A stretch of DNA of 32,071 bases from an uncultured Flavobacteriales bacterium (GTDB lineage: Bacteria; Bacteroidota; Bacteroidia; Flavobacteriales_D; CALLUQ01), in contig CALLUQ010000024.1 of NCBI GenBank assembly GCA_938010565.1, positions 1 through 32,071 of the forward strand. Direction: 5' to 3'. Position 1 is the stretch's first letter; each line of letters begins with the position of its first letter. The notes beneath the pieces are model-generated. The model was not told the origin of the DNA. It ran no database searches and saw only the letters and a program-made list of their open reading frames with translations. The translations under genes were made by a program, and so were the position numbers. Below, in pieces: positions 1,327 through 29,704 of this stretch.

Positions 1327-2145
1327 ATGGCATCCATTTGTTACATCATTCTGGATAGCTTGAGATGGGACAGTTTTGAGTTGGCACAGACCAAAAACCT
1401 GGATCGCCTCACCACTTTTCAAAGCAAACGGTTCTCTTATGCCTCCTGGACCCAGCCCAGCCACTCCTGCCTGCTGTCGGGGCTTTTGCCTTACGAATCG
1501 GAACCGGGGGTTGTGGCCGCAAAAACCTATGTGAACGATATTCAGTTCTGGAATACCGCCCTGGGAGGCGATACCGAAGCCTTGCAAACCCTGGCTCCCG
1601 AATATGCTCTGGCTTTATCGGCCCAACGTTTGGGATGGAACACCATTGGCCGGGTTTCGATGCCGGTACTCAACCCGCAAACCGCTTTCAGTCGCGGGTT
1701 TAATTCGTATGAATTATCGCCAAACGGAAGCTCTTTGGGTGCGCAGATCGAATCCGTTACCTTTGATCTGAAACCCGCCAAAAATTTTGTGTTCATCAAT
1801 GCCGGCGATACCCACTACCCTTATTTGATGCCGGCCAATAAAATGCCCCGAATTTCGGGCATTCATGGCGCTGCATCCACCCAAAAAACCGACCACAACC
1901 GTGCCGAATATGCCATTCCTTTCAGCAAAGATGAACTCAAAACACTTCACGAAAGTCAGATCTTAGGACTGGAACGCGCAGACAAACACATCGAACAACT
2001 GCTCGACCTGATGCCAAAACCATTGTTGTTGGTCGTAGGGTCGGATCACGGCGAATTGTTCGGAGAAGACAATTACTTCGGGCATGGCCCCTTCTTTCAC
2101 AAAACATTGTTTGAAGTACCACTTACCATCGGAATCGTTCATTAA
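1327..2145 (+). CDS. Sulfatase-fold (alkaline phosphatase superfamily) hydrolase/transferase with Thr nucleophile
   Basis: This 272-residue protein has the metal-site strand YIILDSLRWD (Asp10), the nucleophile loop WTQPSHSCLLSG (41-52) and a C-terminal metal site SDHGELFG (Asp240, His241) followed by GHG (His253). This is the PF00884 sulfatase-like layout. The position that carries the formylglycine Cys or Ser in true sulfatases is Thr42, and the following Arg is His46. Formylglycine sulfatase activity is therefore unlikely; a phosphatase, phosphodiesterase or phosphotransferase is more plausible. No signal peptide is seen, so it probably acts in the cytosol. A TTG at 1288 would add 13 residues; the ATG at 1327 fits the family better. 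It is the first gene of the operon, ending 15 bp before the PLP fusion gene. Confidence 0.8.
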   Translation: MASICYIILDSLRWDSFELAQTKNLDRLTTFQSKRFSYASWTQPSHSCLLSGLLPYESEPGVVAAKTYVNDIQFWNTALGGDTEALQTLAPEYALALSAQRLGWNTIGRVSMPVLNPQTAFSRGFNSYELSPNGSSLGAQIESVTFDLKPAKNFVFINAGDTHYPYLMPANKMPRISGIHGAASTQKTDHNRAEYAIPFSKDELKTLHESQILGLERADKHIEQLLDLMPKPLLLVVGSDHGELFGEDNYFGHGPFFHKTLFEVPLTIGIVH

Positions 2146-2160
2146 CCTACCCACCAGCCT

Positions 2161-4710
2161 ATGCTTCAAAAGCAGACATTATCGGCAGATATTGCCTACG
2201 TTTACGGGCAAATAAAAGCTGCACACAACCGGATCAAAGACCGGATCATCGAAACAGAGATCATCCGGCTTCCCTGGCTGGATGCCCCCAACCGCAAGGT
2301 GTGGGCCAAACTGGAATGCCGACAAATTTCGGGTTCGTTTAAGATCAGGGGAGCTTTTAATACCTTTCTTCAAACTCCGGCTTCGGATCACGTCATCACC
2401 TATTCGGCAGGCAACCACGGATTGGCCATGGCAATGGTAGCACAACAACTGGAACGCCAGTGCACCATTTATGTGCCTTCCAACGTTTCGGAACTCAAAC
2501 TCCGGAAGCTGCTCAGTTTGGGAGCCCATGTGGAAACCGTTGGCAGCGATCTGTATGAAAGTTCTTTGTTTGCAAAAGAAAAAGCTGCTGTTACAGGGGC
2601 ACATTTTGTTACCCCGCATTCTACCCCCGATATTGTTTACGGACAAGGAACCATCGGAGCAGAAATTGCAGCTGCCGCAAATCGTATGGATTCGCTCGTT
2701 ATTCCTTTGGGCGGCGGCGGATTGATGTGCGGGATCGGGACGTATATGAAACATGCTTTTCCCGATCATAAGCTCTTTGCTCCTTACCCCGAGATCTTTG
2801 GCCGCAACCTCCGGCAAGGCAACCTGCATCGGGAACTTTGCCGCAAAGTCATTCCGACGGTTGCCGATGGCTTATCGGTACAGGTAGAAGAGAACTGCTG
2901 GACGGTTCCTTTGCTTGAAAGCATGATCGAAAGCCACCAGGCCATCAGCGAAAAGCTCATCAATACAGCCATTTACGCCCTGTTGAGAAACGAAAGCATT
3001 CTGGCGGAAGGCGGAGGGGCCATTGGAGTTGCCATGCTGATGGACGATCCGAGCGGAGAACGCATTTCCGGCGATACGCTGGTGGTGATCAGCGGCGGGA
3101 ACATTGCTCCGGGAGCCGTTTCCAAAGTGATGGCCACCAGCATTTACGACCACCGTTTCCGAAAATTACTGGGGTTGCGTGCCATAAAGATTCAGGGAGA
3201 AATGCCTGTAAAAGCAGAGGGAGAAACAACGGCAATACAACCCCAAAAAGCCCCTGACCTTCAACCCCTTTCCACTCCTTCCGAATCCCTATGGGTAAGC
3301 CTTTTGAAACAACTGGGCCTGAAACTGAAAGCGCTTGAAGACGAAGTAGCCACTTATGTCCGCTTTTTGAACCACAACCAACTGCAATACGATGCCGAAA
3401 GCATTAAAAACGTACGGCACGATATGGCCGCCTGCATCTTCACTGTTGAACAACTCACCACCCATTCGTGGCAAAAAAACGAAGACTGGCTGATCCGCTC
3501 CCGGTACCGGGAACTTCTTCAGAAATATGCGTACCTCGCCAATGTGTTTGAATGGACCAGCCCCAGCTACGATCAAAGCCAGGTGGTGATGTTCTTTAAC
3601 CCCTCCGAACAATCGAGCAACATGGTGAATTACGACCGTTACGGTTCAATTGTACTCCGGAAATTTGAACTGTCGTTGCTGGAAACCCTCGGGTTTGATA
3701 CCCATTTGAATACCATGATCGCAACATCGAGCGGCCAGGCGGCATACCAGGTTATCGAATCGTTTTTATTGCGGGAGGTGTTTGATAAAGAAGACCTTTT
3801 TGTATATTCCGAATACATTTACTTTGAAGGCTTTGAGCAATTGAGTTTGTTGCCGTTCCTGGAAGCGATCAAATGCGAAGGGCATTCGCATGAAGACCTG
3901 ATCGAAGTGGTGGAAAAAAACAACGCCAAAGTGGTTTTTGCAGACCCGATGTGCAACATGAAAGGCCTGCCGGTTTTTGACTTTGCTGCCCTGAGTCAAT
4001 CGCTCCGGGGCCGCAATTGGTCGGAAAAATGGCTCGTAATTGACGGGACGATGGTTTCCGGAGGTTTTAACCCTTTCAGTCTCTTTAACCGGCCTGAACA
4101 TCCGCACATTATCTATTACGAAAGCGCGAGTAAATACCTGCAGTTTGGTTTGGATCTGCAAATGGCAGGAATTTGCATTTGTGAGAAAAAAATCGCTCCT
4201 GCCCTTTCTCGTTACCGCAGAAATTCCGGTTCCACGATGTACAGATCAGGCGTAAACCGATTTCCGGTTTTTACCCGCGATCTGTTTTTGCGCCGCATGC
4301 AGCTGATCTCACAAAATGCAGAACACATTGCGCGGGCATTAAAAGATGCCTTTTCGGCAGAAGAGCAGATCAAAGTTGGGTTTCCCTTCCAATGGTCGCA
4401 GTTGCAATGGCGCCACCCCGGTGCAGTACTGAACATCGAATTCATCGACGAAGGCCTTAACAACAGAGACCAGTTGAACATGCTGGTTGAAATTGTGATC
4501 AACAAAGCACAACAAGCCGGCGTTTCTGTTTCAAAAGGCGTTAGTTTTGGATTTTCGACCACCCGCATTTCGGCTGCTTCGGCCATGGCAGAAAATACCG
4601 ATCCTTTTTTCCGCCTGTCGGTCGGAGAAGAAAATGAAGAAGAATTGAACAAACTCACCAACGTACTCATCAACAGTGTCGACGAGTATCTCAATCTGTA
4701 TCAAGCATGA
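2161..4710 (+). CDS. Bifunctional PLP enzyme: fold-type II (threonine dehydratase-like) fused to fold-type I (cystathionine gamma-synthase-like)
   Basis: Residues 1 to about 330 match fold-type II PLP enzymes of the threonine dehydratase/serine racemase group. They contain ISGSFKIRGAF with the Schiff-base Lys61, SAGNHGLAMA for the phosphate/substrate loop, and the glycine-rich loop GGGGLMCGIG. A linker and helical segment (about 340-480) follows. Residues from about 481 to the end match fold-type I enzymes of the Cys/Met-metabolism type: SSGQAAYQV (523-531), VIDGTMVSGG for the cofactor Asp region, and YYESASKYLQFG with Lys658 as the second Schiff-base lysine. Both lysines are present, so both sites may be active. 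The two folds are unrelated, which makes a single-chain fusion unusual. The frame is continuous over 849 codons, and the stop overlaps the next start by 4 bp (ATGA). The substrates cannot be deduced. A relay from a hydroxy-amino acid such as Ser or Thr through an enamine or beta-replacement product is an inference. Confidence 0.85.
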   Translation: MLQKQTLSADIAYVYGQIKAAHNRIKDRIIETEIIRLPWLDAPNRKVWAKLECRQISGSFKIRGAFNTFLQTPASDHVITYSAGNHGLAMAMVAQQLERQCTIYVPSNVSELKLRKLLSLGAHVETVGSDLYESSLFAKEKAAVTGAHFVTPHSTPDIVYGQGTIGAEIAAAANRMDSLVIPLGGGGLMCGIGTYMKHAFPDHKLFAPYPEIFGRNLRQGNLHRELCRKVIPTVADGLSVQVEENCWTVPLLESMIESHQAISEKLINTAIYALLRNESILAEGGGAIGVAMLMDDPSGERISGDTLVVISGGNIAPGAVSKVMATSIYDHRFRKLLGLRAIKIQGEMPVKAEGETTAIQPQKAPDLQPLSTPSESLWVSLLKQLGLKLKALEDEVATYVRFLNHNQLQYDAESIKNVRHDMAACIFTVEQLTTHSWQKNEDWLIRSRYRELLQKYAYLANVFEWTSPSYDQSQVVMFFNPSEQSSNMVNYDRYGSIVLRKFELSLLETLGFDTHLNTMIATSSGQAAYQVIESFLLREVFDKEDLFVYSEYIYFEGFEQLSLLPFLEAIKCEGHSHEDLIEVVEKNNAKVVFADPMCNMKGLPVFDFAALSQSLRGRNWSEKWLVIDGTMVSGGFNPFSLFNRPEHPHIIYYESASKYLQFGLDLQMAGICICEKKIAPALSRYRRNSGSTMYRSGVNRFPVFTRDLFLRRMQLISQNAEHIARALKDAFSAEEQIKVGFPFQWSQLQWRHPGAVLNIEFIDEGLNNRDQLNMLVEIVINKAQQAGVSVSKGVSFGFSTTRISAASAMAENTDPFFRLSVGEENEEELNKLTNVLINSVDEYLNLYQA

Positions 4711-6203
4711 AAAAAACATTGGTTTGGGGATTAGACGGGGTTTCCGTTAAACTCTTTAAAGGGTATACGGAAGCACACCCCGGTGGGCTCTTTGAGAAAA
4801 TTTTTCAGGATGGGATCGTGAGGGAACTCACTTCTACCATGCCTTATTTTACAGCTCCCGCATGGACCACTTTTGCAACCGGATTACAACCGGGAATACA
4901 TGGCAATTTCCATTGGCGGGCACGTTATTCGAAAAAAGAAGGCAACCGCCCGTTGGTTTCGTCGCGCCATTTACAGGAGGCTACCTTCTGGTCTTATTTT
5001 CAACACTTCGGAGGTGCTGTAAGTGTTACCAATTTTCCGATGGAATACCCCGCTCCTCCGGTAAACGGACGGTACATTTGCGGAACCCTGGCACCCGAAA
5101 ACGCGGAAGAAGTATCCTGGCCCAAAGCCATGATGCAACACATAAAAACAAAATACCCGGAATACCGTTTCGAAATGAACAAAGGGCTGAGTTATATGGA
5201 CCGGCCCAAAGAATTGTGGGACCACATTTATCAGGTAGGCAAACACCACCTGGATGCCATGATGGAATACGGCAACCCGTTTAAAGCAGATCTGCTGGTC
5301 CATATTGTTACCATTACCGATCGTGCGGAACATTTTTTCTGGAACCTTTACGACGAAACACATCCCGATTACGACCCTGCTTTAAAAGCAGCCATAGGCA
5401 ACCCTGTTTTTGATACCATGAAACTGGCCGAGGATTACCTCGACAAACTGTGGCAAAGCAACCGCTGGGACAACCTCATCGTTGTAAGCGACCACGGCAT
5501 GGATGCTTCCAAAACCTCTTTTCACACCGACAACTGGCTCCTGGAAAAAGGCTACCTCAAAGCGGACAGCAACCGCCGGGTTTTAATGGAAGAAAGCATG
5601 GCCTATTCGGGAGAAGAGCCCGAATGCTCGGTGTATGTGAACCGCAAAGACCGCGATGCATGTGGATTGGAAACATCGGAATACGATGCCTTCATTCAAA
5701 AACTGAGAACCGAACTACTGGCCGTTCGCAACCCTGCTAACCGCCAGCTTGTTTTTGCGGATGTTCTTTTTGGAAAAGACATTTATCACGGGCCTGCCGC
5801 TCACCTGGGGCCCGACCTCATTCTGCTGCCTTCCGAAGGGGTACACCCCAGAAACGGATTAACCACCCCCGATATTCACGGAACGGCTACACGTTTGTAT
5901 GCCAACCACCGGCCCGATGGCATTTTTATGGGATATGGAAAAGACATACGGCCTTCGGCACGTTCCGAACAAAATGCAGCCCTGCATATTCAAGACATGT
6001 TCCCTTTGCTTTGTTTGTTGTGCGATTTGCCGATCCCCGCAGATCTGTCCGGATCCATTCCCGAAAATGTTGGCCAATACATCGATCTTGTTGCAAAAGA
6101 AGATCCGGAGTGGGATTGGCCGTCTCAGGTAAAGGGATTGCCTACTTTTCAGGATTTTAATCCTCAGATCATTGAACGTTTATCTGAATTGGGGTACCTT
6201 TAA
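4707..6203 (+). CDS. Type I phosphodiesterase/nucleotide pyrophosphatase-like hydrolase (alkaline phosphatase superfamily)
   Basis: The 498-residue product begins with the metal-site motif TLVWGLDGVS (Asp10) and has the nucleophile loop FTAPAWTTFATG (48-59) with Thr49 as likely nucleophile. ITDRAEHFFW, VVSDHGMD and a following HTDNW supply the remaining zinc ligands in the order expected for the nucleotide pyrophosphatase/phosphodiesterase branch. There is no signal peptide, so it is probably cytosolic. Its ATG overlaps the stop of the PLP fusion gene, indicating translational coupling. It is the second alkaline-phosphatase-superfamily enzyme of the operon and differs clearly in length and motif from the first, so the two are not a recent duplication. 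The likely reaction is phosphate- or phosphodiester-bond hydrolysis or transfer on a pathway intermediate; the substrate is unknown. Confidence 0.8.
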   Translation: MKKTLVWGLDGVSVKLFKGYTEAHPGGLFEKIFQDGIVRELTSTMPYFTAPAWTTFATGLQPGIHGNFHWRARYSKKEGNRPLVSSRHLQEATFWSYFQHFGGAVSVTNFPMEYPAPPVNGRYICGTLAPENAEEVSWPKAMMQHIKTKYPEYRFEMNKGLSYMDRPKELWDHIYQVGKHHLDAMMEYGNPFKADLLVHIVTITDRAEHFFWNLYDETHPDYDPALKAAIGNPVFDTMKLAEDYLDKLWQSNRWDNLIVVSDHGMDASKTSFHTDNWLLEKGYLKADSNRRVLMEESMAYSGEEPECSVYVNRKDRDACGLETSEYDAFIQKLRTELLAVRNPANRQLVFADVLFGKDIYHGPAAHLGPDLILLPSEGVHPRNGLTTPDIHGTATRLYANHRPDGIFMGYGKDIRPSARSEQNAALHIQDMFPLLCLLCDLPIPADLSGSIPENVGQYIDLVAKEDPEWDWPSQVKGLPTFQDFNPQIIERLSELGYL

Positions 6204-6217
6204 AATAAGGAAAAACA

Positions 6218-7465
6218 ATGGCTCTGCTGGGAAAAAAAATAGGAACGACAATACAACGCCGTCAGGATTGGCAAACCGTTCAGGCTGCTGCTCCTGCTCC
6301 TTTGCAAGCTCATCATATTTCCGGAAAAGAATGCCGGGCACACCCCTATGCCGCGCTGGCCCTGCGCACCTATATTCTGTTAAAAACCTACCGCAACGAT
6401 TACCATACGGATGTGTTCGATCTCGATCGGCTGGCAGAAGGGATCCGCAAGGAAGAGGAACGCATTTTTTTTTGGGGCGACCCGGAAGCGGTGGCCATAG
6501 GGCGCCGGTTTTTAACAACCAATCACCGCACGGTTCCGGATGCTATGCCCGAGATCCAGTTGGGAACAGCCACCATTTTAAATACCTCACTTCCCGAAGA
6601 GAACAGCATTGCGGAGCTTACCCGTACCGGCAGTATTTCCCAACAAATTCCTTCTGTTCATTCCAACATTGAAGAACTGGAATCCCTCTTTCGGACATCG
6701 GGCTATCAGGTCATTTTTTCAACCCCGCGCAACCGAACTTCCACACCCGAAATCAGGGGCGGAGCAGCCATACAAAGGCAACATGTACGCGCCTTAAACT
6801 CGGCCTTTTGGGGATGGGCACCGTGGTACATCATGCAAGGCGGCTTTTTGGAAATATTGGATTACCGGGAATTGTACCGCGAACCGGAAAACATTGCACA
6901 ACAGTTGCGTGTACTTCCCGGGCTGTTTGTACACCACAAAACGGAAGCAAAGTTCATTGCCGATCTTTTTGCTTTGAACCTCGGTTTTTCCCCTCCTGTT
7001 TCCAATACCGCTGAAGGAGAAACCACCGGACACCTGCAAAAAGGGTGGCGCATCGGGAATGTTGCCTCTGCGGATCTAATGGCCTTTAACCCGGTTTTTC
7101 TTTGCGAAGATGAAACAGGAGAAAAAGGAACCTTTGAAAAAGCGATCACACACCTTGAAAGGATGCCCGGTGCCTGCCATCTGGTGGAGTTGAATGTGTG
7201 CGACTCCAAAAACATCCGGTTTCAAAAAATATTGCAGCAACGTGCTTTTTACCTGGTTTGTGTGCGCGTACACGTTGCAAAAAACAAGAAAATAAAATTG
7301 ATCGGAGCATGGGCCAAACAAAAGAAAACCACGCCTGTGGCTCCGCCTTATTATTTGAACATGCAAGGGTTTTCCGAAGTTGAGAACAGGTTGCTAGGTT
7401 ATCTGCGCAACCTGATGAAAGTCTTCCGGCCAAAGGCCACATGCTCCGAAACCAATCCGCAATAA
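6218..7465 (+). CDS. Unrecognised protein of the biosynthetic operon (415 aa)
   Basis: I do not recognise this 415-residue protein. It starts at ATG 6218 with an AAGG ribosome-binding-like sequence 8 bases upstream, 14 bp after the phosphodiesterase gene. It has no signal peptide and no obvious membrane segment. Notable patches are HPYAALALRTYILLKTYRND (about 42-61), an aromatic stretch FWGWAPWYIMQGG near the middle, HHKTEAKFIADLFALNLGF, and a C-terminal part (HLVELNVCDSKNIRFQKIL) that faintly recalls the end of a GNAT acyltransferase fold; that resemblance is weak. Directly upstream of the carrier protein and the AMP ligase, it could be the missing acyl- or aminoacyl-transferring enzyme of the pathway, which is an inference from position only. 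Confidence 0.75.
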   Translation: MALLGKKIGTTIQRRQDWQTVQAAAPAPLQAHHISGKECRAHPYAALALRTYILLKTYRNDYHTDVFDLDRLAEGIRKEEERIFFWGDPEAVAIGRRFLTTNHRTVPDAMPEIQLGTATILNTSLPEENSIAELTRTGSISQQIPSVHSNIEELESLFRTSGYQVIFSTPRNRTSTPEIRGGAAIQRQHVRALNSAFWGWAPWYIMQGGFLEILDYRELYREPENIAQQLRVLPGLFVHHKTEAKFIADLFALNLGFSPPVSNTAEGETTGHLQKGWRIGNVASADLMAFNPVFLCEDETGEKGTFEKAITHLERMPGACHLVELNVCDSKNIRFQKILQQRAFYLVCVRVHVAKNKKIKLIGAWAKQKKTTPVAPPYYLNMQGFSEVENRLLGYLRNLMKVFRPKATCSETNPQ

Positions 7466-7474
7466 GTTCCCTTT

Positions 7475-7759
7475 ATGATGAAAGAAAAAGACCACCGCAT
7501 ATCGCCTGTCATCACCACGGAAATGCTACTCGACGCCTTCCGGCAGGTGGTATCAAACAAAGAAAATACGGAAATTGAGATCGGGGCGATAAGCCCTGAA
7601 ACCACCCTGGAGGAGCTCCACCTCGACAGCCTCGAAATGGCCGAAGTACTCATTTTGCTAGAACAAAAAGTAAGCATGGAGCTCAATCCGTTCGGGAAAA
7701 TGCCGCTGGTAAAAATTAAGGATTTTGCCATGCTGGCTCAAGAAAAAAAGACGGGATAA
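7475..7759 (+). CDS. Acyl carrier protein
   Basis: This is a 94-residue acidic, helical protein with the phosphopantetheine attachment motif LHLDSLEMAE; Ser52 is the expected modified residue. The N-terminal extension before the four-helix bundle is slightly longer than in FabC/AcpP. Two consecutive ATG codons (7475 and 7478) could start it. It lies 3 bp before the adenylating enzyme, so the pair is very probably a dedicated ligase and carrier. Being far from any fatty-acid synthesis genes, it is a specialised rather than housekeeping carrier. It would need a 4'-phosphopantetheinyl transferase encoded elsewhere. Confidence 0.9.
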   Translation: MMKEKDHRISPVITTEMLLDAFRQVVSNKENTEIEIGAISPETTLEELHLDSLEMAEVLILLEQKVSMELNPFGKMPLVKIKDFAMLAQEKKTG

Positions 7760-7762
7760 GCC

Positions 7763-8998
7763 ATGTTATATTCCTTGCTGCAAAACCGCAAAAGCACCGG
7801 CTCGGTCTCCAATTTCAGGCAGGAATTGTCGTGGGAAGAATTTGCGCGGCAAACCGATCGGTTTGCCACCTTTCTGGACCAACCGGGCTGGAACAGTTTT
7901 GGCCTTACTTTCGAATGTGAATTGGCTGCGCTGGCTTGTTGCATTGCCCTCAACAAGCTTCGGAAAACATGCCTTTTTGTGCCTTCCGATCACTCCCTTG
8001 TCACTCCCTGTGATGTACAGGTGCATGCCCTTCCTTCTTTCAGGCTGGAGATCGAAGAAAATGAAAACAAAAAAGCAGGATACGAAACCGATGCGCTGGT
8101 GCTCTACTCTTCGGGCACTACAGGTACTCCCGTAGCCAAAAACCGGTTGTGGGCAACGCTTACCGACAACAACCATGTGCCCGGTTTTCAGCCGGACACG
8201 CATTGGATCTCTGCATATCCGCTTGATGCATTTGCAGGTATTCAGGCCGCCATTTACGGATTGGCAGCAGCCGAACATTTGTATTTCATCCCACCCAACC
8301 AATACCTGCCATCTTTTAAAGCCGATGCCCCTGTTTTTGATTTGGTGATGGCTACGCCCACCTTTTGGAGAAGAAACTTACTGCATCCGGACCTGAACAT
8401 TCGGGTCCGTTCCCTTTCGCTGGGTGGAGAAACCGTACCACAAGTGCTGATCGACCTCCTGAAAGAACGATTGAAGGTTGAAAAAATAACCCATATTTAC
8501 GCTACCACGGAGTTGGGGTCTCTTTTTAGTGTTTCGGACGAACGGGAAGGATTTCCCAAAAGCTGGCTGGGAAACCGGCTGTCCAACGGAACTCAACTGG
8601 AAGCCATCGGGGAGGAGCTCTGGGTGACCGTTTCCGGAACGCAGGAGGCACAAAACACCGGAGATCTGATCGAAATTCGTGGGGATCGGGTGTGCTTTAC
8701 AGGGCGCAAGGAATCGATCATCAATGTGGGCGGACGTAAGGTATCTGCACATCGGGTCGAAACCGCTTTGCTTTCGATGGATGCCATTGCGGATGCCCGT
8801 GTGCAAGGAGCCCGAAACCCCATTATGGGCCAAATTGTTGTGGCAGATATCATCCCCCGCAAAGGGGCCGATGAGTCCCAAATAAGGGCCGACATCATCA
8901 CCCGATTTAAAAAACACCACCGGCCTGAGGAGCGGCCCATGCGCATCCGGTTTGTAGAAGAATTTGAATTGACCAGAACGGGTAAAAAGAAAATATAA
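7763..8998 (+). CDS. Short acyl/aminoacyl-AMP ligase (ANL superfamily), probable carrier-protein loader
   Basis: The 411-residue product carries the ANL adenylation motifs in order. The phosphate loop is YSSGTTGTP (115-123), lacking the usual Lys-Gly directly after the Pro and continuing VAK instead. The A5 motif is YATTELGSLFS. The A7/A8 hinge is TGDLIEIRGDRVCFTGRKES followed by INVGGRKVSAHRVE. The C-terminal LTRTGKKKI holds the catalytic lysine. At 411 residues it is markedly shorter than the usual 500-550, the loss being in the N-terminal subdomain. The expected reaction is ATP-dependent activation of a carboxylic or amino acid and transfer to the phosphopantetheine thiol of the preceding carrier protein. 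Substrate preference cannot be read by eye. Confidence 0.85.
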   Translation: MLYSLLQNRKSTGSVSNFRQELSWEEFARQTDRFATFLDQPGWNSFGLTFECELAALACCIALNKLRKTCLFVPSDHSLVTPCDVQVHALPSFRLEIEENENKKAGYETDALVLYSSGTTGTPVAKNRLWATLTDNNHVPGFQPDTHWISAYPLDAFAGIQAAIYGLAAAEHLYFIPPNQYLPSFKADAPVFDLVMATPTFWRRNLLHPDLNIRVRSLSLGGETVPQVLIDLLKERLKVEKITHIYATTELGSLFSVSDEREGFPKSWLGNRLSNGTQLEAIGEELWVTVSGTQEAQNTGDLIEIRGDRVCFTGRKESIINVGGRKVSAHRVETALLSMDAIADARVQGARNPIMGQIVVADIIPRKGADESQIRADIITRFKKHHRPEERPMRIRFVEEFELTRTGKKKI

Positions 8999-9001
8999 CA
9001 C

Positions 9002-9721
9002 ATGAAATACATCGTAGTTACCGGAGCATCAAAAGGGCTTGGACTGGCCATAACCGAGGCCTTGCTGGCACATGATTACGGGGTAATTGCCTTGTCGCGG
9101 AGCAAAACCGATGCGGTGGTTGAACTGGAAAAAAAATTTGATGATCGGTTCGAATGGATGCAGGTGGACCTTCAGAATACGGATGCACTGTACAGCCGGG
9201 CCGGAACGATACTGCACCGATATCCTGTTTATGGGCTGATCAACAACGCAGGCTATGTGCACGATCAGTTAGTGGTAATGAACAACCAGGAGGAGATCGA
9301 CAAAATGATCCGGATCAATTTTTCCGCTCCCATTGCTTTGAGCCGCTTGTTTGCCAAGCACTTTTTGATCCAACGGGAGGGCCGGATCATTCAGATGGGT
9401 TCCATTGCTGCTTTCAGGGCTTTTAAAGGCATGGCGGTTTATGCTGCCACAAAAGCAGGGTTGTCCGCTTTTTCAAAAGGACTTGCACAAGAAATTGGTT
9501 CGCGAAACATCACGGTGAACAACATTACACCCGGCTTTATTCCCACGTCCATCAATGCGCATGTTCCGGATCATCGCATGGATCACATTCGCAGGCGCAC
9601 CGCTCTGAAACGTTTGGCAGCGGCGGAAGATGTAGCAGAAGCCGTGCTTTTTTTGCTTTCCGATAAAGGCAAAAACATGACCGGGATGGATTGGGTAATT
9701 GATGCAGGGCAAAGTTTATAA
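9002..9721 (+). CDS. Short-chain dehydrogenase/reductase (FabG-like)
   Basis: This is a 239-residue classical SDR. The nucleotide loop is TGASKGLG (7-14), NNAG lies at 81-84, and the catalytic residues are Asn106, Ser134, Tyr147 and Lys151 within YAATKAG. Ser32-Arg33 after the second strand suggests NADP(H) preference. The C-terminus (NMTGMDWVIDAGQSL) matches FabG-type 3-oxoacyl reductases. It starts 3 bp after the ligase stop. In this operon it may reduce a carrier-bound or free ketone or oxidise an alcohol. No ketosynthase is encoded nearby, so a standard beta-ketoacyl elongation role is not supported. Confidence 0.9.
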   Translation: MKYIVVTGASKGLGLAITEALLAHDYGVIALSRSKTDAVVELEKKFDDRFEWMQVDLQNTDALYSRAGTILHRYPVYGLINNAGYVHDQLVVMNNQEEIDKMIRINFSAPIALSRLFAKHFLIQREGRIIQMGSIAAFRAFKGMAVYAATKAGLSAFSKGLAQEIGSRNITVNNITPGFIPTSINAHVPDHRMDHIRRRTALKRLAAAEDVAEAVLFLLSDKGKNMTGMDWVIDAGQSL

Positions 9722-9733
9722 AAGCCAAAAAGC

Positions 9734-10501
9734 ATGAAACAAAAGGTATTTTATGTAGGCGGTCCGCCCCGCTCCGGAACCACCTTTATCAGCGATTGGA
9801 TCACTCAGGCTCCGGAGGCGTATTGTGCCCATGAAATTTCTGCACGGATCTCGAACAAAAAAGACGAAGAGGTGGTGCAATTGTTGCTCGGATATGCCGC
9901 TTCGGGCAACGACCGCTACGGCAAACGCAAACAACGCGAGTTTTTGGACTGGGAAAACATCCCCGTTAAAAAAGCACCCGAGCAACTTGGATTCAAACAA
10001 CCTGTTGTTTGGCAAAACCCTGCGGATTGTCCTGCTGTGGCAGATCGGTTCATCGATCGCATGAAAGGAAAACGGATCCTGATCTTTCGCCATCCTATCG
10101 ATATGATCGCTTCTGCAAAACACCGCGAAAAAACCACCGCCAATTGGCCGGGTTATTCGGTGAAAGAGCTGTGTGCTTTTTGGAAATGTGCCTTTGAACA
10201 CACTCAAAATTGGGCAAAAGACCCGGATCGTTTGCACGTTGTACAATGGGAACGGTTGTTGTTGGATCACGATGCCGAGAAGGCTTTGCTCGAACGTTTT
10301 CTTTCGCTTAAGTTACCGCAGTTTGCCGGATACGAAAACAGTTCCGAATACTTCAAAATACTTCAGCGCACCACCTCTTTCGAACAAGGCGTTACGGGCA
10401 ATAAAAAACGAGAACTACTTTCGCCCCAGGAAGTGAAACAGATCAATCAACTGCTGGAAGCCTATCCTTCTTTTGGTTACAAAGCTACTGCCATCGCATG
10501 A
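9734..10501 (+). CDS. PAPS-dependent sulfotransferase
   Basis: The 255-residue product has the two PAPS-binding elements of soluble sulfotransferases. The 5'-phosphosulfate loop is GGPPRSGTTF (9-18) near the N-terminus, and the 3'-phosphate motif is FRHPIDMIAS (118-127). The C-terminal half keeps the WERLL and FLSLKLP segments common in this family. It would transfer sulfate from PAPS to a hydroxyl or amino group of an acceptor in the cytosol. Its stop overlaps the next gene's start by 4 bp. CysC, CysD and CysN, which make PAPS, are encoded later in the window. The acceptor is unknown. Confidence 0.88.
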   Translation: MKQKVFYVGGPPRSGTTFISDWITQAPEAYCAHEISARISNKKDEEVVQLLLGYAASGNDRYGKRKQREFLDWENIPVKKAPEQLGFKQPVVWQNPADCPAVADRFIDRMKGKRILIFRHPIDMIASAKHREKTTANWPGYSVKELCAFWKCAFEHTQNWAKDPDRLHVVQWERLLLDHDAEKALLERFLSLKLPQFAGYENSSEYFKILQRTTSFEQGVTGNKKRELLSPQEVKQINQLLEAYPSFGYKATAIA

Positions 10502-11355
10502 CCGTTTACTTTGCCATACTGACCTACAACAGAAGCAAAAGCCTGCTGCAATTGCTGGAGACCATTTTTAAACAAAGCCTGCCTCCGGGGGGTCGTTTTC
10601 AGGTGGTGATATGGGACAATTGTTCCGATGAAACGCATGTGCAGGCCTTCCGGAACTCTCGTTTCGGGGAGGTCGATCATGTTCGCTATATCATTGGAAA
10701 AGAAAACGCTTTTATGGTAGGAAAGCGCCATCTGGAAGATGCTGTTTTGGATTTGGGGCCCGATCCGAAAAACGACTATCTCGTTCATCTGGATGATGAT
10801 GTACAGCTTTCCGAAAGCTGGTTATCGCATGTGTTTCGGTGCATGGAACAACTCCGGCTGGATGCTTGCGGCTCGGTAGAAACCTGGAAAGGGCAACTGA
10901 TCTACAGCGGCCAGACCCACCTGCATACCACCGCAAAAACCGGAGATCTTTATCCTTTGAAAGTATGGAAATGGCAGTGGCAGGAAGTTCCGGCCAATGC
11001 ATCCGTTGCCGGAGCGGAAGTGGCTTTTGCCGGCCATCGGGCACTTTTGGTAAAGATGGCTGTTGCCGTACAGGTAAAGCACGACCCGCAAATGTTGATA
11101 GGCGGAGAAGATCTGGACTACAGCCTGGCCCTAAAAGCGGCCGGATTTCGCATAGGCATTGCCCACCAGGCACTGATATATCATCGCTTACTAAAAGAAG
11201 AAGACGCACACAACTTCCGGTCGCCCGATAAGATCCTCCATTCGTGGAAACACTTTCACCAAAAATGGGGGTTTGTGCGAAACAACGTCGACCGGGAACT
11301 TCAAATCGTACGTGAAGCATGGCTTAAAACCGCTGCAGAATGGTGCGGAAAGTAG
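10498..11355 (+). CDS. Family 2-like glycosyltransferase (GT-A fold)
   Basis: The 285-residue product starts with VYFAILTYNRSKSLLQLLET, the first strand and helix of GT2 enzymes. A metal-binding DxD-type motif (HLDDDVQL, Asp99-Asp101) and a catalytic-base region GGEDLDYSLALKAAGFRIG follow. No membrane segment is seen, so it is a soluble or peripheral transferase using a nucleotide-sugar donor. The start overlaps the sulfotransferase stop (ATGA). It is the last gene of the operon, followed by a weak terminator-like hairpin. It probably adds a sugar to the pathway product. Confidence 0.88.
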   Translation: MTVYFAILTYNRSKSLLQLLETIFKQSLPPGGRFQVVIWDNCSDETHVQAFRNSRFGEVDHVRYIIGKENAFMVGKRHLEDAVLDLGPDPKNDYLVHLDDDVQLSESWLSHVFRCMEQLRLDACGSVETWKGQLIYSGQTHLHTTAKTGDLYPLKVWKWQWQEVPANASVAGAEVAFAGHRALLVKMAVAVQVKHDPQMLIGGEDLDYSLALKAAGFRIGIAHQALIYHRLLKEEDAHNFRSPDKILHSWKHFHQKWGFVRNNVDRELQIVREAWLKTAAEWCGK

Positions 11356-11533: not shown

Positions 11534-11551
11534 ACAATACTTCGCTAAAAA
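11534..11551. repeat. Left terminal inverted repeat of the insertion sequence
   Basis: The sequence is ACAATACTTCGCTAAAAA. It is identical to the reverse complement of the right end, and the match stops at the next base. Confidence 0.9.
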
Positions 11552-11553
11552 CT

Positions 11554-12795
11554 CTATGCTGCAATCTTCCCAAATCTTAGAAACTTGTTGAAGATGTATT
11601 TATTTTTGAGAAGTTTGGTGTTTACCCCGAACATTTTAATAAATCGATCCAGCATCATTTGGTTATTAAACAATGTTTTAACATCACTCATTGAAAAGGC
11701 TACTTCCTCTTTGGTGTTACTATCTTTTTTGGGTATCCAATACACTATCTTAGCCACATTGATGGCAGTGAGTGCCATATTCCAATGAAAGTCTAATTTA
11801 TTTTTACTTCTAGCCTGACAATCATTTAATCCTGTAAATTGTTTGGCATCTCTGTACAAGAATTCAATTTGAAATCTCAAACGATACATTTTCAGTATCT
11901 GCTGCCAATGTTGAGTCAAATCGGTACTAAAGTAAATTTTGTGAGACAGGATTCCCTTCTTAATTGTTGTATAGACAATTACGGTATTAATTGTTCTTTT
12001 CAAGGTTTTATGCCTTGCTTTTAACCAGTAAATTTTCTCACCGTCAACCTCTGATACTAATGTAGCGTGTTTTACCTCTAGATTTTGATAATTCACCTTA
12101 CCGTCAAACTTCTTTTTTCTTCCTTTGCCCTTTGATTGTTCTCCTGTAAAAAGATACTGCATATTGGCATCATCTCTGAGCCTTGAAACCACATGAAAAC
12201 CTGCCATTGTCATAGGGTTTATAAAAGTAATTTTGGAAAAATAAGCATCTGCCACCCAATACTTTGACAGGGCTAATAATTGTGCTTTTTGTTCCAAAAG
12301 TTTACGGACATAAAAACTGATTAAGGTTTCATTGTCTTTCAATTCCACTGTTTGAAAGCTTGTCAGGTGAAAGGCTGTTTTTCTTAACAAATCCAAAGCA
12401 GCCACCCCACAAAGTTCCAACCCCCACTTTGTAGCACCTGCACAACCACTCCAAAAATAACCTACTCCAGGAGTTTTCTTTCCTGATTTAGAAATGTAGC
12501 TTGGATCAAAAGCTATGGCGGTTGCACCTTTTAAGTGTGTGCTTAGGAGTACCTTGTTAAAAGATAGAAAATCGAAAGATTGTTCAAAGAAGTATCGAAA
12601 ACGCTGTTCACATTTTTCTGAAAAACGTGCTAATTGTAAGAAATTGATTTTTCCTCTGATGCTTAAAAATAAAATGAGAATGTTACAGAAACTGTTAGGA
12701 ATTCTGCGATCTATTTTTTCTTCGATTTGTGCAAATGTGGAAAAAACAATACCTTTCAGTTCGAATAACTCTTGATTTTTGGCATTATGGATCAT
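11554..12795 (-). CDS. IS4-type DDE transposase
   Basis: The 413-residue protein carries the DDE triad in the IS4 arrangement. The first Asp is in AIAFDPSYISKSGKK, the second in YWVADAYFSK, and the Glu is in a perfect YREK signature (YRLRFQIEFLYRDAKQF; Y-2-R-3-E-6-K). The length is normal for the family and there is no internal stop or frameshift, so it may be active. It starts at ATG 12795 and ends three bases inside the left terminal repeat. It cuts and pastes the surrounding element by binding the 18-bp ends. Confidence 0.92.
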   Translation of the reverse strand: MIHNAKNQELFELKGIVFSTFAQIEEKIDRRIPNSFCNILILFLSIRGKINFLQLARFSEKCEQRFRYFFEQSFDFLSFNKVLLSTHLKGATAIAFDPSYISKSGKKTPGVGYFWSGCAGATKWGLELCGVAALDLLRKTAFHLTSFQTVELKDNETLISFYVRKLLEQKAQLLALSKYWVADAYFSKITFINPMTMAGFHVVSRLRDDANMQYLFTGEQSKGKGRKKKFDGKVNYQNLEVKHATLVSEVDGEKIYWLKARHKTLKRTINTVIVYTTIKKGILSHKIYFSTDLTQHWQQILKMYRLRFQIEFLYRDAKQFTGLNDCQARSKNKLDFHWNMALTAINVAKIVYWIPKKDSNTKEEVAFSMSDVKTLFNNQMMLDRFIKMFGVNTKLLKNKYIFNKFLRFGKIAA

Positions 12796-12873
12796 ACATA
12801 AAGATACTGAAAACCAAATAGTTATTCAACTCTTTAGTCGCCTATTTTTTTGAAATTCAGCCAATTAAAGAAC

Positions 12874-12891
12874 TTTTTAGCGAAGTATTGT
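12874..12891. repeat. Right terminal inverted repeat of the insertion sequence
   Basis: The sequence is TTTTTAGCGAAGTATTGT, the exact reverse complement of the left end. A near copy of this end stands alone at 30857-30873. Confidence 0.9.
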
Positions 12892-26636: not shown

Positions 26637-26843
26637 CTCCCGAAAATGAGCGGTGGGATGTGGTTTTTTCTTTTTAGCACTCTGATGTTAAGCTAGATAA
26701 GGGTTTTTCTTGTCGATGGATCTTTCGGGTTAAGAGCGTGTTCTACAGCCCATATCCAGAGCGGAAAATAAAATGCATTTTCCTGATAATCAAAGCATTT
26801 ACAACAGGGTGACAGCCTATCGTTTCTGCCCCCGCTTTTTTTG

Positions 26844-26851
26844 TACATTTG
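26844..26851 (+). promoter_or_regulatory. Bacteroidota-type -7 promoter element for cysCDN
   Basis: TACATTTG fits the TAnnTTTG -7 consensus of Bacteroidota sigma-A exactly and lies 17 bp before the cysC ATG. Seventeen bases further upstream TTTC (26823-26826) is one mismatch from the TTTG -33 element. A very short leader is implied. Confidence 0.5.
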
Positions 26852-26868
26852 CCTTCACTTTTTTGAAA

Positions 26869-27474
26869 ATGACAAACATAAACGATCATATTTATCCGGT
26901 TTTCGACCAGTTGTTGAACCGGCAACATAAAGAAGACCTTCTCAAGCAAAAAGCGGGTGTTTTTTGGCTTACAGGCCTTTCCGGGTCAGGTAAAACAACC
27001 ATTGCCAAAGAACTGGAGAAACAATTGCATGCACGAGGTTTCATGACCCAATTACTGGACGGCGATAACATCCGTACGGGCATTTGTAATAACCTTGGTT
27101 TCAGCAACGAAGACCGGATCGAAAACATCAGGCGCATTGCTGAAGTGAGCAAGTTGTTTTTAAACGGCGGGATGATCGTTATCAATTGCTTCGTAAGCCC
27201 TACCCGTAAGATCCGGGCCATGGCCAGAGATATTATCGGCGAAGCCGATTTTCATGAGATCTTCATCAATACACCGCTTGAAGTTTGTGAAACAAGAGAT
27301 GTAAAAGGGCTTTATGCCAAAGCCCGGAAAGGTGAGGTCAAAAATTTTACGGGCATTGATGCCCCCTTTGAAATACCAGAAGCACCTGCACTGGATCTGC
27401 ACACAGCCAACAGGAGTATTGAAGTTACTGTTGGTGAATTGCTCCAATACGTAATTCCTCATATAAAAAAATAA
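26869..27474 (+). CDS. cysC: Adenylylsulfate kinase
   Basis: The 201-residue product has Walker A GLSGSGKTT (36-44), LLDGDNIRTGICNNLGFS for APS binding, ENIRRIAEV, and the FVSPTRKIR and DVKGLYAKARKGEVKNFTGI segments of APS kinases. It phosphorylates adenylyl sulfate to PAPS. ATG 26869 is chosen over ATG 26773, because the extra 32 residues are unlike the family and would cover the promoter. It is followed after 6 bp by cysD. Confidence 0.95.
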   Translation: MTNINDHIYPVFDQLLNRQHKEDLLKQKAGVFWLTGLSGSGKTTIAKELEKQLHARGFMTQLLDGDNIRTGICNNLGFSNEDRIENIRRIAEVSKLFLNGGMIVINCFVSPTRKIRAMARDIIGEADFHEIFINTPLEVCETRDVKGLYAKARKGEVKNFTGIDAPFEIPEAPALDLHTANRSIEVTVGELLQYVIPHIKK

Positions 27475-27480
27475 ACCAAC

Positions 27481-28389
27481 ATGCGATCTTCTTATAGTTT
27501 AACCCACCTTAAGGAACTTGAAGCCGAATCCATTTATGTCATCCGTGAGGTAGTGGCTCAATTTGAGAATCCGGTACTGCTTTTTTCGGGCGGCAAAGAT
27601 TCTATTGTTTGCTTTTATCTGGCTCGCAAAGCATTTTACCCGGGGAAAGTTCCTTTTTCGTTAATGCATATTGATACAGGGCACAATTTTCCGGAAACCA
27701 TTGCTTTTCGCGACGATCTGGCAAAAAAATATGATGTAAAGATGCTGGTAGGTTCTGTTCAGGAATCGATCAACCAGGGGAAAGCAATAGAAGAAAAAGG
27801 GTACAATGCAAGCCGCAACAAGATGCAAACTGTTACCTTACTCGATTCTATCGAAGCACACCGGTTCGATTGTGCAATGGGAGGTGCTCGTCGGGATGAG
27901 GAAAAAGCCCGTGCCAAAGAACGTTTCTTTTCTCATCGCGATGATTTTGGCCAGTGGGATCCTAAAAACCAGCGCCCTGAATTGTGGAATCTGTTCAATG
28001 GTCGCAAGCACATGGGAGAACATTTCCGGGTATTCCCGATCTCCAACTGGACGGAAATGGACATCTGGCAATACATTTTGCATGAAGAGATTGAATTGCC
28101 TTCGCTTTATTTTTCTCATAAAAGAAATGTATTCGAACGCGATGGCACTTTATTATATGCTTCTGACCTTATTCAACGCAAAGAAACGGAGATCCCGTCA
28201 GAACGTATCATTCGTTTCCGTACCATTGGCGATGTAACATGTACCGGTGCTATCGAATCCAGTGCTTCGACCTTGGAAGAGATCATCGAAGAAGTAGCTT
28301 CTACCCGCGTTACCGAGCGTGGCGGACGAGCCGATGATAAGCGGAGCGAAGCCGCTATGGAAGACCGTAAGAAAGAAGGGTATTTCTAA
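27481..28389 (+). CDS. cysD: Sulfate adenylyltransferase small subunit
   Basis: The 302-residue product carries the PP-loop SGGKDS (36-41), HIDTGHNFPETI, GGARRDEEKARAKER and the C-terminal RFRTIGDVTCTGAIES and GRADDKRSEAAMEDRKKEGYF regions, as in CysD. With CysN it forms ATP sulfurylase, making adenylyl sulfate from sulfate and ATP. It is the middle gene of cysC-cysD-cysN. Confidence 0.97.
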   Translation: MRSSYSLTHLKELEAESIYVIREVVAQFENPVLLFSGGKDSIVCFYLARKAFYPGKVPFSLMHIDTGHNFPETIAFRDDLAKKYDVKMLVGSVQESINQGKAIEEKGYNASRNKMQTVTLLDSIEAHRFDCAMGGARRDEEKARAKERFFSHRDDFGQWDPKNQRPELWNLFNGRKHMGEHFRVFPISNWTEMDIWQYILHEEIELPSLYFSHKRNVFERDGTLLYASDLIQRKETEIPSERIIRFRTIGDVTCTGAIESSASTLEEIIEEVASTRVTERGGRADDKRSEAAMEDRKKEGYF

Positions 28390-28429
28390 ACGATCAATGC
28401 CCGGGAACAAACAATTCAAATTGACAACG

Positions 28430-29704
28430 ATGAATACAAACGATACCAAAGGATACCTCGAAATGGACCTCTTACGCTTCACGACTGCCGGAAGTGTAGA
28501 TGATGGAAAAAGCACGCTGATCGGGCGTTTATTATACGATTCAAAATCCATTTTCGAAGACCAGATGGAAGCCATTGAACGTGCCAGCGAACGCCATGGG
28601 GACGAAAATATCAACCTTGCATTGCTTACGGATGGTTTACGTGCCGAACGGGAACAAGGCATTACCATCGATGTCGCTTACCGTTATTTTGCTACTCCAA
28701 AAAGAAAGTTCATTATTGCAGATACTCCGGGACATATTCAATATACCCGGAACATGGTAACCGGTGCTTCAACTGCCAACCTTGCGGTGATACTGGTAGA
28801 TGCCCGTAAAGGTATTCTGGAGCAAACCTGCCGTCATTCTTTTATTGCTTCGCTGTTACAGATCCCGCACGTAGTGTATTGCATCAACAAGATGGATCTG
28901 GTGGATTATCAGGAAGAACGCTACAATGAGATCCGGAAAGAACTGGAAGCATTTGCTTCCAAACTTGAAGTAAAAGATGTTCGTTTTTTGCCGGTCAGTG
29001 CTTTGCACGGAGATAATGTAGTGGATCGTTCGGAAAATATGCCTTGGTACAATGGCCCGAGTTTGCTCTATACATTGGAAAACATTCACATTTCCGGCGA
29101 TCAGAACCAAATTGATTGTCGTTTCCCGATACAATACGTGATTCGCCCTCATTCCGATGAGTTTCACGATTTCCGGGGGTATGCAGGTCGCATTGCCGGG
29201 GGTGTTTTTAAAGCCGGTGACGATGTAACCGTATTGCCTTCCGGTTATACTTCAAAGATCAAAAGCATTGAAACACTTGGTGGCCAGCTCGAAGAAGCGT
29301 TCAGTCCTATGTCGGTAACCCTTACCCTGGAAGACGAGATCGATGCCAGCCGTGGCGATATGATCGTTCGCAATAACAATCAGCCGGAAGTGGGGCAGGA
29401 AATTGATCTGATGCTTTGCTGGATGGGGGAACAGCCGCTTCAGCCCTCCGGGAAATATGCGATCAAACACACGATGAAAGATGTACGGTGCATCATCAAA
29501 GAAATCAAATACAAAGTGGATATCAACACCCTTCACCGCAACGAAGAGGACAAACAAATCAACAGCAACGATATTGCGCGGATTTCCATTCGAACCACTT
29601 CGCCCTTGCTTTTTGATCGCTACTCCAGAAACCGGAATACAGGTAGCCTGATCATGATTGATGAAGCAACCAATTTTACCGTTGGAGCTGGCATGATCAT
29701 TTAA
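28430..29704 (+). CDS. cysN: Sulfate adenylyltransferase large subunit (GTPase)
   Basis: The 424-residue product has the translation-factor-type GTPase motifs GSVDDGKST (21-29), ADTPGHIQYTRNM and NKMDL, followed by beta-barrel domains. There is no fused APS kinase domain, consistent with the separate cysC. It drives the CysD reaction by GTP hydrolysis. ATG 28430 (MNTNDTKGYLEMDLLRFTTA) is chosen; ATG 28397 would add 11 residues and is also possible. A strong terminator hairpin follows. Confidence 0.96.
   Translation: MNTNDTKGYLEMDLLRFTTAGSVDDGKSTLIGRLLYDSKSIFEDQMEAIERASERHGDENINLALLTDGLRAEREQGITIDVAYRYFATPKRKFIIADTPGHIQYTRNMVTGASTANLAVILVDARKGILEQTCRHSFIASLLQIPHVVYCINKMDLVDYQEERYNEIRKELEAFASKLEVKDVRFLPVSALHGDNVVDRSENMPWYNGPSLLYTLENIHISGDQNQIDCRFPIQYVIRPHSDEFHDFRGYAGRIAGGVFKAGDDVTVLPSGYTSKIKSIETLGGQLEEAFSPMSVTLTLEDEIDASRGDMIVRNNNQPEVGQEIDLMLCWMGEQPLQPSGKYAIKHTMKDVRCIIKEIKYKVDINTLHRNEEDKQINSNDIARISIRTTSPLLFDRYSRNRNTGSLIMIDEATNFTVGAGMII

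Follow-up and report, generated by a model that had tools for sequence, protein, structure and literature searches.

What would a bacterium make with an operon that joins acid activation on a carrier protein, pyridoxal phosphate (PLP) chemistry, reduction, sulfation and glycosyl transfer? The question is raised by positions 1327–11355 of contig CALLUQ010000024.1 from an uncultured Flavobacteriales bacterium (assembly GCA_938010565.1; 3.02 Mb, 91.6% complete); the whole contig, 32,071 nt, is the window analyzed here. The nine-gene operon is real and intact, and it is partly ordinary in kind and unusual through a dual-PLP fusion enzyme and the pairing of that fusion with sulfation. Its product is probably an acylated, sulfated, sugar-linked molecule, and we give an even chance to glycan decoration, in which an acid would be loaded onto acyl carrier protein (ACP) and reduced, then joined to a sugar and sulfated.

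The nine plus-strand open reading frames (ORFs) are separated, in order, by 15, −4, 14, 9, 3, 3, 12 and −4 bp, both negative values being ATGA overlaps, which agrees with the tight packing reported in a preliminary description made from the sequence alone. Codon usage gives a coding signal in frame 1 only for all nine, and eight of the nine proteins match Pfam families with their catalytic motifs intact. Gene 1 (1327–2145, 272 aa) encodes an STM4013-like hydrolase/transferase of the alkaline phosphatase (AlkP) superfamily (PF00884, 2.8e-6; PF01663, 1.3e-5); gene 2 (2161–4710, 849 aa) the dual-PLP fusion (PALP, 6.8e-54; Cys_Met_Meta_PP, 3.5e-9), with both PLP lysines; and gene 3 (4707–6203, 498 aa) a type I phosphodiesterase of the AlkP superfamily (PF01663, 1e-25). 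Gene 4 (6218–7465, 415 aa) encodes an orphan protein with no Pfam match above cut-off that is nonetheless coding by codon usage. These are followed by an acyl/aminoacyl carrier protein (gene 5, 7475–7759, 94 aa; PF00550, 2e-4), with its carrier Ser in LDSLE; a short ANL-family AMP ligase (gene 6, 7763–8998, 411 aa; PF00501 and PF13193, the AMP-binding and C-terminal domains), with its P-loop and C-terminal Lys; a FabG-like short-chain dehydrogenase/reductase (SDR; gene 7, 9002–9721, 239 aa; PF13561, 5.3e-45, and adh_short), with its Tyr-Lys pair; a sulfotransferase of the Sulfotransfer_3 family dependent on 3′-phosphoadenosine 5′-phosphosulfate (PAPS; gene 8, 9734–10501, 255 aa; PF13469, 1.1e-9), with both PAPS motifs (PPRSGTT and FRHPIDMIAS); and a family-2 glycosyltransferase (GT2; gene 9, 10498–11355, 285 aa; PF00535, 9e-10), with its acidic DDD and a GGED motif. 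The combination of activities listed in the preliminary description, two PLP folds in one chain among them, is thus confirmed by Pfam and motifs. So are the absences that it noted: no ketosynthase or condensation domain was found in the nine proteins by Pfam and NCBIfam scans, nor a methyltransferase by Pfam scans.

None of the collections searched, in which the relatives of the host were no closer than order level, contained the complete nine-gene set, and no described pathway with this gene content was found in the literature. The earlier claim that the operon fits no standard layout fails for parts of it: two sub-blocks are co-conserved elsewhere, namely a recurring ACP–ligase–SDR glycan cassette and a phosphodiesterase gene adjoining a sulfotransferase gene among glycosyltransferases. 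The conditions that the preliminary description named for its own refutation thus gave a mixed outcome.

The first of these blocks comprises genes 5–7. The best plasmid relatives of the ligase are from Azospirillum, and in A. brasilense Sp7 the order is ACP, ligase, SDR, ketoacyl-ACP synthase III (KAS III) and flagellin, and these genes are immediately preceded by pseI and glycosyltransferases; this cassette lies in a pseudaminic-acid, glycosyltransferase and flagellin cluster. The window ligase and SDR are 36% and 35% identical, respectively, to their Azospirillum counterparts, and the carrier aligns across its Ser region. A ligase search over 297 same-phylum genomes yielded 11 other genomes with the ligase. 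Eight of the 11 loci (L064, L066–L071 and L074) have ACP, ligase and SDR side by side in the window's order; two of the others carry ligase and SDR with no recognized ACP (L065 and L072) and one the ligase alone (L073). Most neighbors in these loci, identified by eye from translations or by matching to Azospirillum genes, read as genes for surface glycans and encode DegT aminotransferases, hexapeptide acyltransferases, sugar-phosphate transferases, a PseI homologue, a PIG-L-like protein and flagellins. Group II flagellar glycosylation islands of Aeromonas likewise hold an ACP, a 3-oxoacyl-ACP reductase and an AMP-dependent synthetase (orf1–3; PMC7874193), and the viosamine island of Pseudomonas syringae holds acp, vioS, vioR and vioB and makes N-(3-hydroxy-1-oxobutyl)-2-O-methylviosamine, an acylated viosamine (PMC3927599). 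Because the same order is found in Azospirillum and in same-phylum loci, and because such islands have been published, the ACP–ligase–SDR third of the operon is, as judged from gene order and similarity, a known and recurring surface-glycan acylation cassette. What the published islands share with the window is a carrier protein and a FabG-like reductase (with an AMP ligase in Aeromonas), used or proposed for acyl groups on sugars. In contrast to them, the window has no KAS III, sugar-nucleotide genes or recognizable acyltransferase, and it adds the dual-PLP fusion, the sulfotransferase and two AlkP-type enzymes. The fusion may supply the acid in place of the cassette ketosynthase that is missing from the window.

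The second block concerns the AlkP-type enzymes. The two metal phosphatase/phosphodiesterase-type enzymes of the preliminary description are indeed AlkP-superfamily members and can now be specified further: both have a Thr-type nucleophile region (TQPSH in gene 1), the formylglycine sulfatase signature C-x-P-x-R is absent from both, and its Ser form is absent by eye from the nucleophile regions. Gene 1 scores 2.8e-17 against the NCBIfam STM4013 family, far under cut-off. Gene 3 is the sole PF01663 match of its genome. When 396 same-phylum genomes were searched at this cut-off, a single one yielded a relative (E 5e-26). In this distant genome (G276, L035:13988–17968) the genes run phosphodiesterase, sulfotransferase (Sulfotransfer_3), phosphodiesterase, with glycosyltransferases on the flanks. 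More distant relatives of gene 3, from haloarchaea, have GT2, GT4, GT39 or flippase genes clustered around them in several plasmids, though not in all. A PF01663 search across the phylum, matching 143 of 198 genomes, was too broad for an adjacency test, and no informative plasmid relatives were found for the sulfotransferase and GT2. Two lines of evidence, the recurrence of ACP–ligase–SDR in glycan loci and the AlkP relative that adjoins a sulfotransferase and glycosyltransferases, point to glycan decoration. Other sulfotransferases are encoded in the host genome, and two contigs that bear polysaccharide genes hold five of these. Contig C57 (L044) of this genome holds four sulfotransferases with flippase-like and sugar-transferase-like genes, a probable sulfated exopolysaccharide locus; on contig C126 (L046:7259–11233) an alpha-oxoamine-synthase-like protein stands beside a sulfotransferase and an SDR, a possible sulfolipid locus.

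A sulfotransferase accompanied by two sulfatase-like proteins is also described for the ascamycin and nucleocidin clusters, whose proteins, compared by description and size, resemble those of the window (AcmG, 480 aa; AcmI, 302 aa; PMC4257720); by this analogy the operon would make a sulfamate- or sulfate-bearing nucleoside-like product. We consider this very improbable: Pfam detects no amidinotransferase (AcmN/NucN), radical SAM, rubrerythrin or nucleoside genes among the nine operon proteins, which instead include a carrier protein and a PLP fusion, neither of which is mentioned in the portions of the cluster descriptions that were consulted.

The exceptional part of the operon is the 849-aa fusion, which belongs to an uncharacterised family; no published fusion of PLP fold II with fold I was found in the literature. 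Its fold II domain (about residues 14–330) resembles serine/threonine dehydratases, with PLP-binding Lys61, the motifs SFKxRGA, SAGNH, GGGG and SGGN, and a PF00291 match of 6.8e-54; the nearest entry in the Protein Data Bank (PDB) is TdcB, the catabolic threonine dehydratase, and the domain falls under the cut-off of every NCBIfam model listed. The fold I domain (about residues 460–849, PLP-binding Lys658) is highly divergent from standard cystathionine gamma-synthases, and its Cys_Met_Meta_PP match is weak. Its AlphaFold model, built from four sequences (predicted TM-score 0.67), gave methionine gamma-lyase as the best Foldseek match (E 5e-13) and also matched cystathionine gamma-synthase; at TM-scores of about 0.45–0.6, the modeled fold is of the cystathionine-gamma-synthase/methionine-gamma-lyase type at the family level only. 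Two more specific identities were considered and rejected. Reverse transsulfuration, by cystathionine beta-synthase and cystathionine gamma-lyase halves, conflicts with fold II scores of 188 bits for threonine/serine dehydratase vs. 54 bits for cysteine synthase. In a serine racemase, the residue before GNH would be Ser, as in 5cvc; it is Ala83 here, Ala in all four fusions covering the site, and Ala in TdcB.

Full-length fusions with 39–43% identity to that of the window occur on Pseudomonas amygdali plasmids, in Paracidovorax oryzae and in a metagenome-assembled genome of Spirobacillus cienkowskii; no other full-length member was found. Broken or partial copies are present in P. syringae (Psy0479), P. 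tremae and Xanthomonas bromi. Since the X. bromi partial copy is 95% identical to that of P. amygdali (other pairs, 38–63%), these two copies indicate, at the sequence level, recent transfer. Fold II catalytic residues are invariant in every member covering them, and five members all share K658, D628 and the carboxylate-binding R818 of fold I. This conservation at about 40% identity across distant lineages, with catalytic residues unchanged, counts, as far as sequence comparison can tell, for the glycan-decoration reading. The fold I half has no relative in 396 same-phylum genomes (single sequence) or in 239 order-mates (profile); a single-protein genome scan with fold I gave no match, and an alignment-based scan then found relatives. 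Viral contigs and phages yielded no relatives.

The settings of these relatives differ from that of the window. In plant-pathogen genomes (L024:13974–17224, L025, L026, L027, L028 and L030) the fusion is paired with a GNAT protein, a pair that is intact on P. amygdali pv. aesculi plasmids, near cmaL on one of them, and whose GNAT partner is apparently frameshifted in Paracidovorax oryzae. The pair on coronatine-type plasmids of pv. aesculi (WP_005730260.1 and WP_005730262.1) includes a full-length fusion of 42–43% identity with both active sites intact, but it consists of two genes only, with no carrier, ligase, sulfotransferase or glycosyltransferase. In Spirobacillus (QOVW01000087.1, L029:475–8187) the next two genes after the fusion encode a haem-oxygenase-like iron enzyme (PF14518, 8e-24) and, behind it, an ATP-grasp protein that carries an L-amino-acid-ligase C-terminal domain, with ABC-transporter genes next (by eye); the locus of this Daphnia pathogen resembles a gene cluster, so far uncharacterised, for a peptide or amino-acid metabolite. 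Because the fusion is common to all contexts and is accompanied in them by enzymes for tailoring or attachment, an amino-acid-like building block is favored. We tentatively propose, as a conjecture somewhat short of even likelihood, that the 849-aa protein founds a new family of dual-fold PLP synthases whose members all make the same unusual amino-acid building block. This family would have spread horizontally among plant pathogens, an invertebrate pathogen and bacteria of Bacteroidota type, and would have been recruited by at least three tailoring systems, one for N-acylation, one for oxidation with peptide ligation and export, and one for carrier-bound sulfated glycan decoration. The fusion and its partner genes would offer a genetic handle on these enzymes, so far uncharacterised, in plant pathogens and Spirobacillus.

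The nearest published functional analogue is RtxA of Bradyrhizobium elkanii, a dihydroxyacetone-phosphate aminotransferase/dihydrorhizobitoxine synthase whose N-terminal part makes a small amine that the C-terminal part incorporates (PMC3222319). Like the fusion, RtxA joins two PLP domains in a single chain and has a member of the Cys/Met-metabolism family as its C-terminal domain (PMC3222319). Since the N-terminal domain is of a different fold, an aminotransferase in RtxA vs. a PALP fold II Ser/Thr-dehydratase-like domain here, the fusion resembles RtxA in outline and by analogy and is not a member. This parallel brings in a different reading of the operon, namely that the fusion makes an unusual amino acid, as RtxA does, which would then be activated, sulfated and glycosylated to give a diffusible secondary metabolite or antimetabolite acting outside the cell. 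Such a product is possible, if on balance unlikely. It accords with the presence of the fusion in plant pathogens, on coronatine-type plasmids and in a Daphnia pathogen, where its neighbors, either a GNAT or an oxidase, an amino-acid ligase and an ABC exporter, are a typical small-molecule set, and with the setting of the closest relative found for gene 1 (42% identity), in a cluster of Mesorhizobium huakuii plasmid p_3 (L048:353–14806) with radical SAM, alanine-racemase and P450 genes. The operon, however, has no exporter, resistance gene or peptide-forming enzyme, and both ACP–ligase–SDR and the AlkP, sulfotransferase and glycosyltransferase genes point to glycans. The Mesorhizobium cluster as a whole holds DegT-like, transketolase, two radical SAM, alanine-racemase, DUF3050, TldD-related and cytochrome P450 genes; strain 7653R has part of this cluster near nif genes (L049).

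The evidence for glycan decoration must itself be set against several observations that weigh on the other side. The operon has no KAS III, sugar-nucleotide enzyme, flippase or polymerase, unlike most glycan loci; its only glycosyltransferase is the one GT2, and neither the nine genes nor the downstream core genes identified include sugar-nucleotide, aminotransferase or flippase genes. Relatives of the fusion elsewhere sit outside glycan loci, an AlkP enzyme beside a sulfotransferase is known from one genome (G276), both AlkP families are broad and some of their relatives lie outside glycan loci, and the 415-aa protein shows no similarity to the acyltransferases tested (GNAT, hexapeptide and FemAB). 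The acylated, sulfated and glycosylated product of the preliminary description survives as the chemistry of a biosynthetic operon, with its context favoring a role in decorating a surface or secreted glycan over a free-standing metabolite pathway.

From the gene content, motifs, packing, recurrence of ACP–ligase–SDR in glycan loci and conservation of both active sites of the fusion, all of which are observed, we infer the reactions that follow, the kinds of acid and acceptor, and a single product for all nine genes. The fusion would make an amino- or keto-acid building block, with fold II catalyzing beta-elimination or dehydration of a Ser/Thr-type substrate and fold I a gamma/beta-replacement or elimination of the cystathionine-gamma-synthase type. 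The ligase would adenylate this acid and load it onto the carrier protein, where the SDR would reduce a keto group to give a hydroxyacyl group. An acyltransferase, perhaps the 415-aa orphan, would transfer the acyl group to an amino sugar or other acceptor; GT2 would add a sugar and the sulfotransferase would sulfate the product with PAPS; and the two AlkP-type enzymes would act on a phosphate or phosphodiester group, either removing or transferring it. If this is true, amino-acid PLP chemistry is tied directly to carrier-protein acylation and glycan sulfation, an arrangement for which no described example was found.

The orphan itself had no match above cut-off in Pfam, NCBIfam or PHROGs, none in the PDB or among plasmids, and none in 396 same-phylum genomes. 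The probability of a random stop-free run of 415 codons is about 1e-9. A match to LMWPc (E 0.02, one C-terminal stretch) was judged to be chance, a GNAT identity was not supported by shuffled alignments, and a single-sequence structure model was unusable (predicted local distance difference test score, 34). Calling it a candidate acyltransferase is a guess from its position.

Acquisition of the operon by transfer is plausible. To its left, at approximately 400–1000 on the minus strand, a XerC-like tyrosine recombinase fragment was recognized by eye in a six-frame reading of 1–1326; it is divergent from the operon and its reading frame is broken upstream. Adjoining the operon downstream is an insertion sequence (11534–12891) with perfect 18-bp terminal inverted repeats and a minus-strand IS701/IS4-type transposase (11554–12795; Pfam/NCBIfam). 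The GC content of the operon genes is 0.47–0.51, and that of the core genes measured is 0.45–0.47 in six of seven and 0.49 in the other. The two flanking elements, a GC content above that of most downstream core genes and the absence of the full gene set from any other genome would also suit a recent joining of several modules (PLP fusion and AlkP; ACP–ligase–SDR; sulfotransferase and GT2) with independent or decayed roles. We hold this to be improbable, given the uniform codon usage, the tight packing with two ATGA overlaps spanning module borders, and the intact state of all catalytic motifs. PAPS-supply genes lie outside the operon, 15 kb away: CysC, CysD and CysN (adenosine 5′-phosphosulfate kinase and sulfate adenylyltransferase; PF01583, PF01507 and PF00009) are encoded at 26773–29704 on the plus strand. 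The downstream chromosomal core genes, read from translations, are fbp and mfd, then mreBCD, a penicillin-binding protein gene and rodA. The gene content indicates a Bacteroidota host. At the other end, the window at 1–1000 also holds the N-terminal end of a further minus-strand ORF that runs off the contig start.

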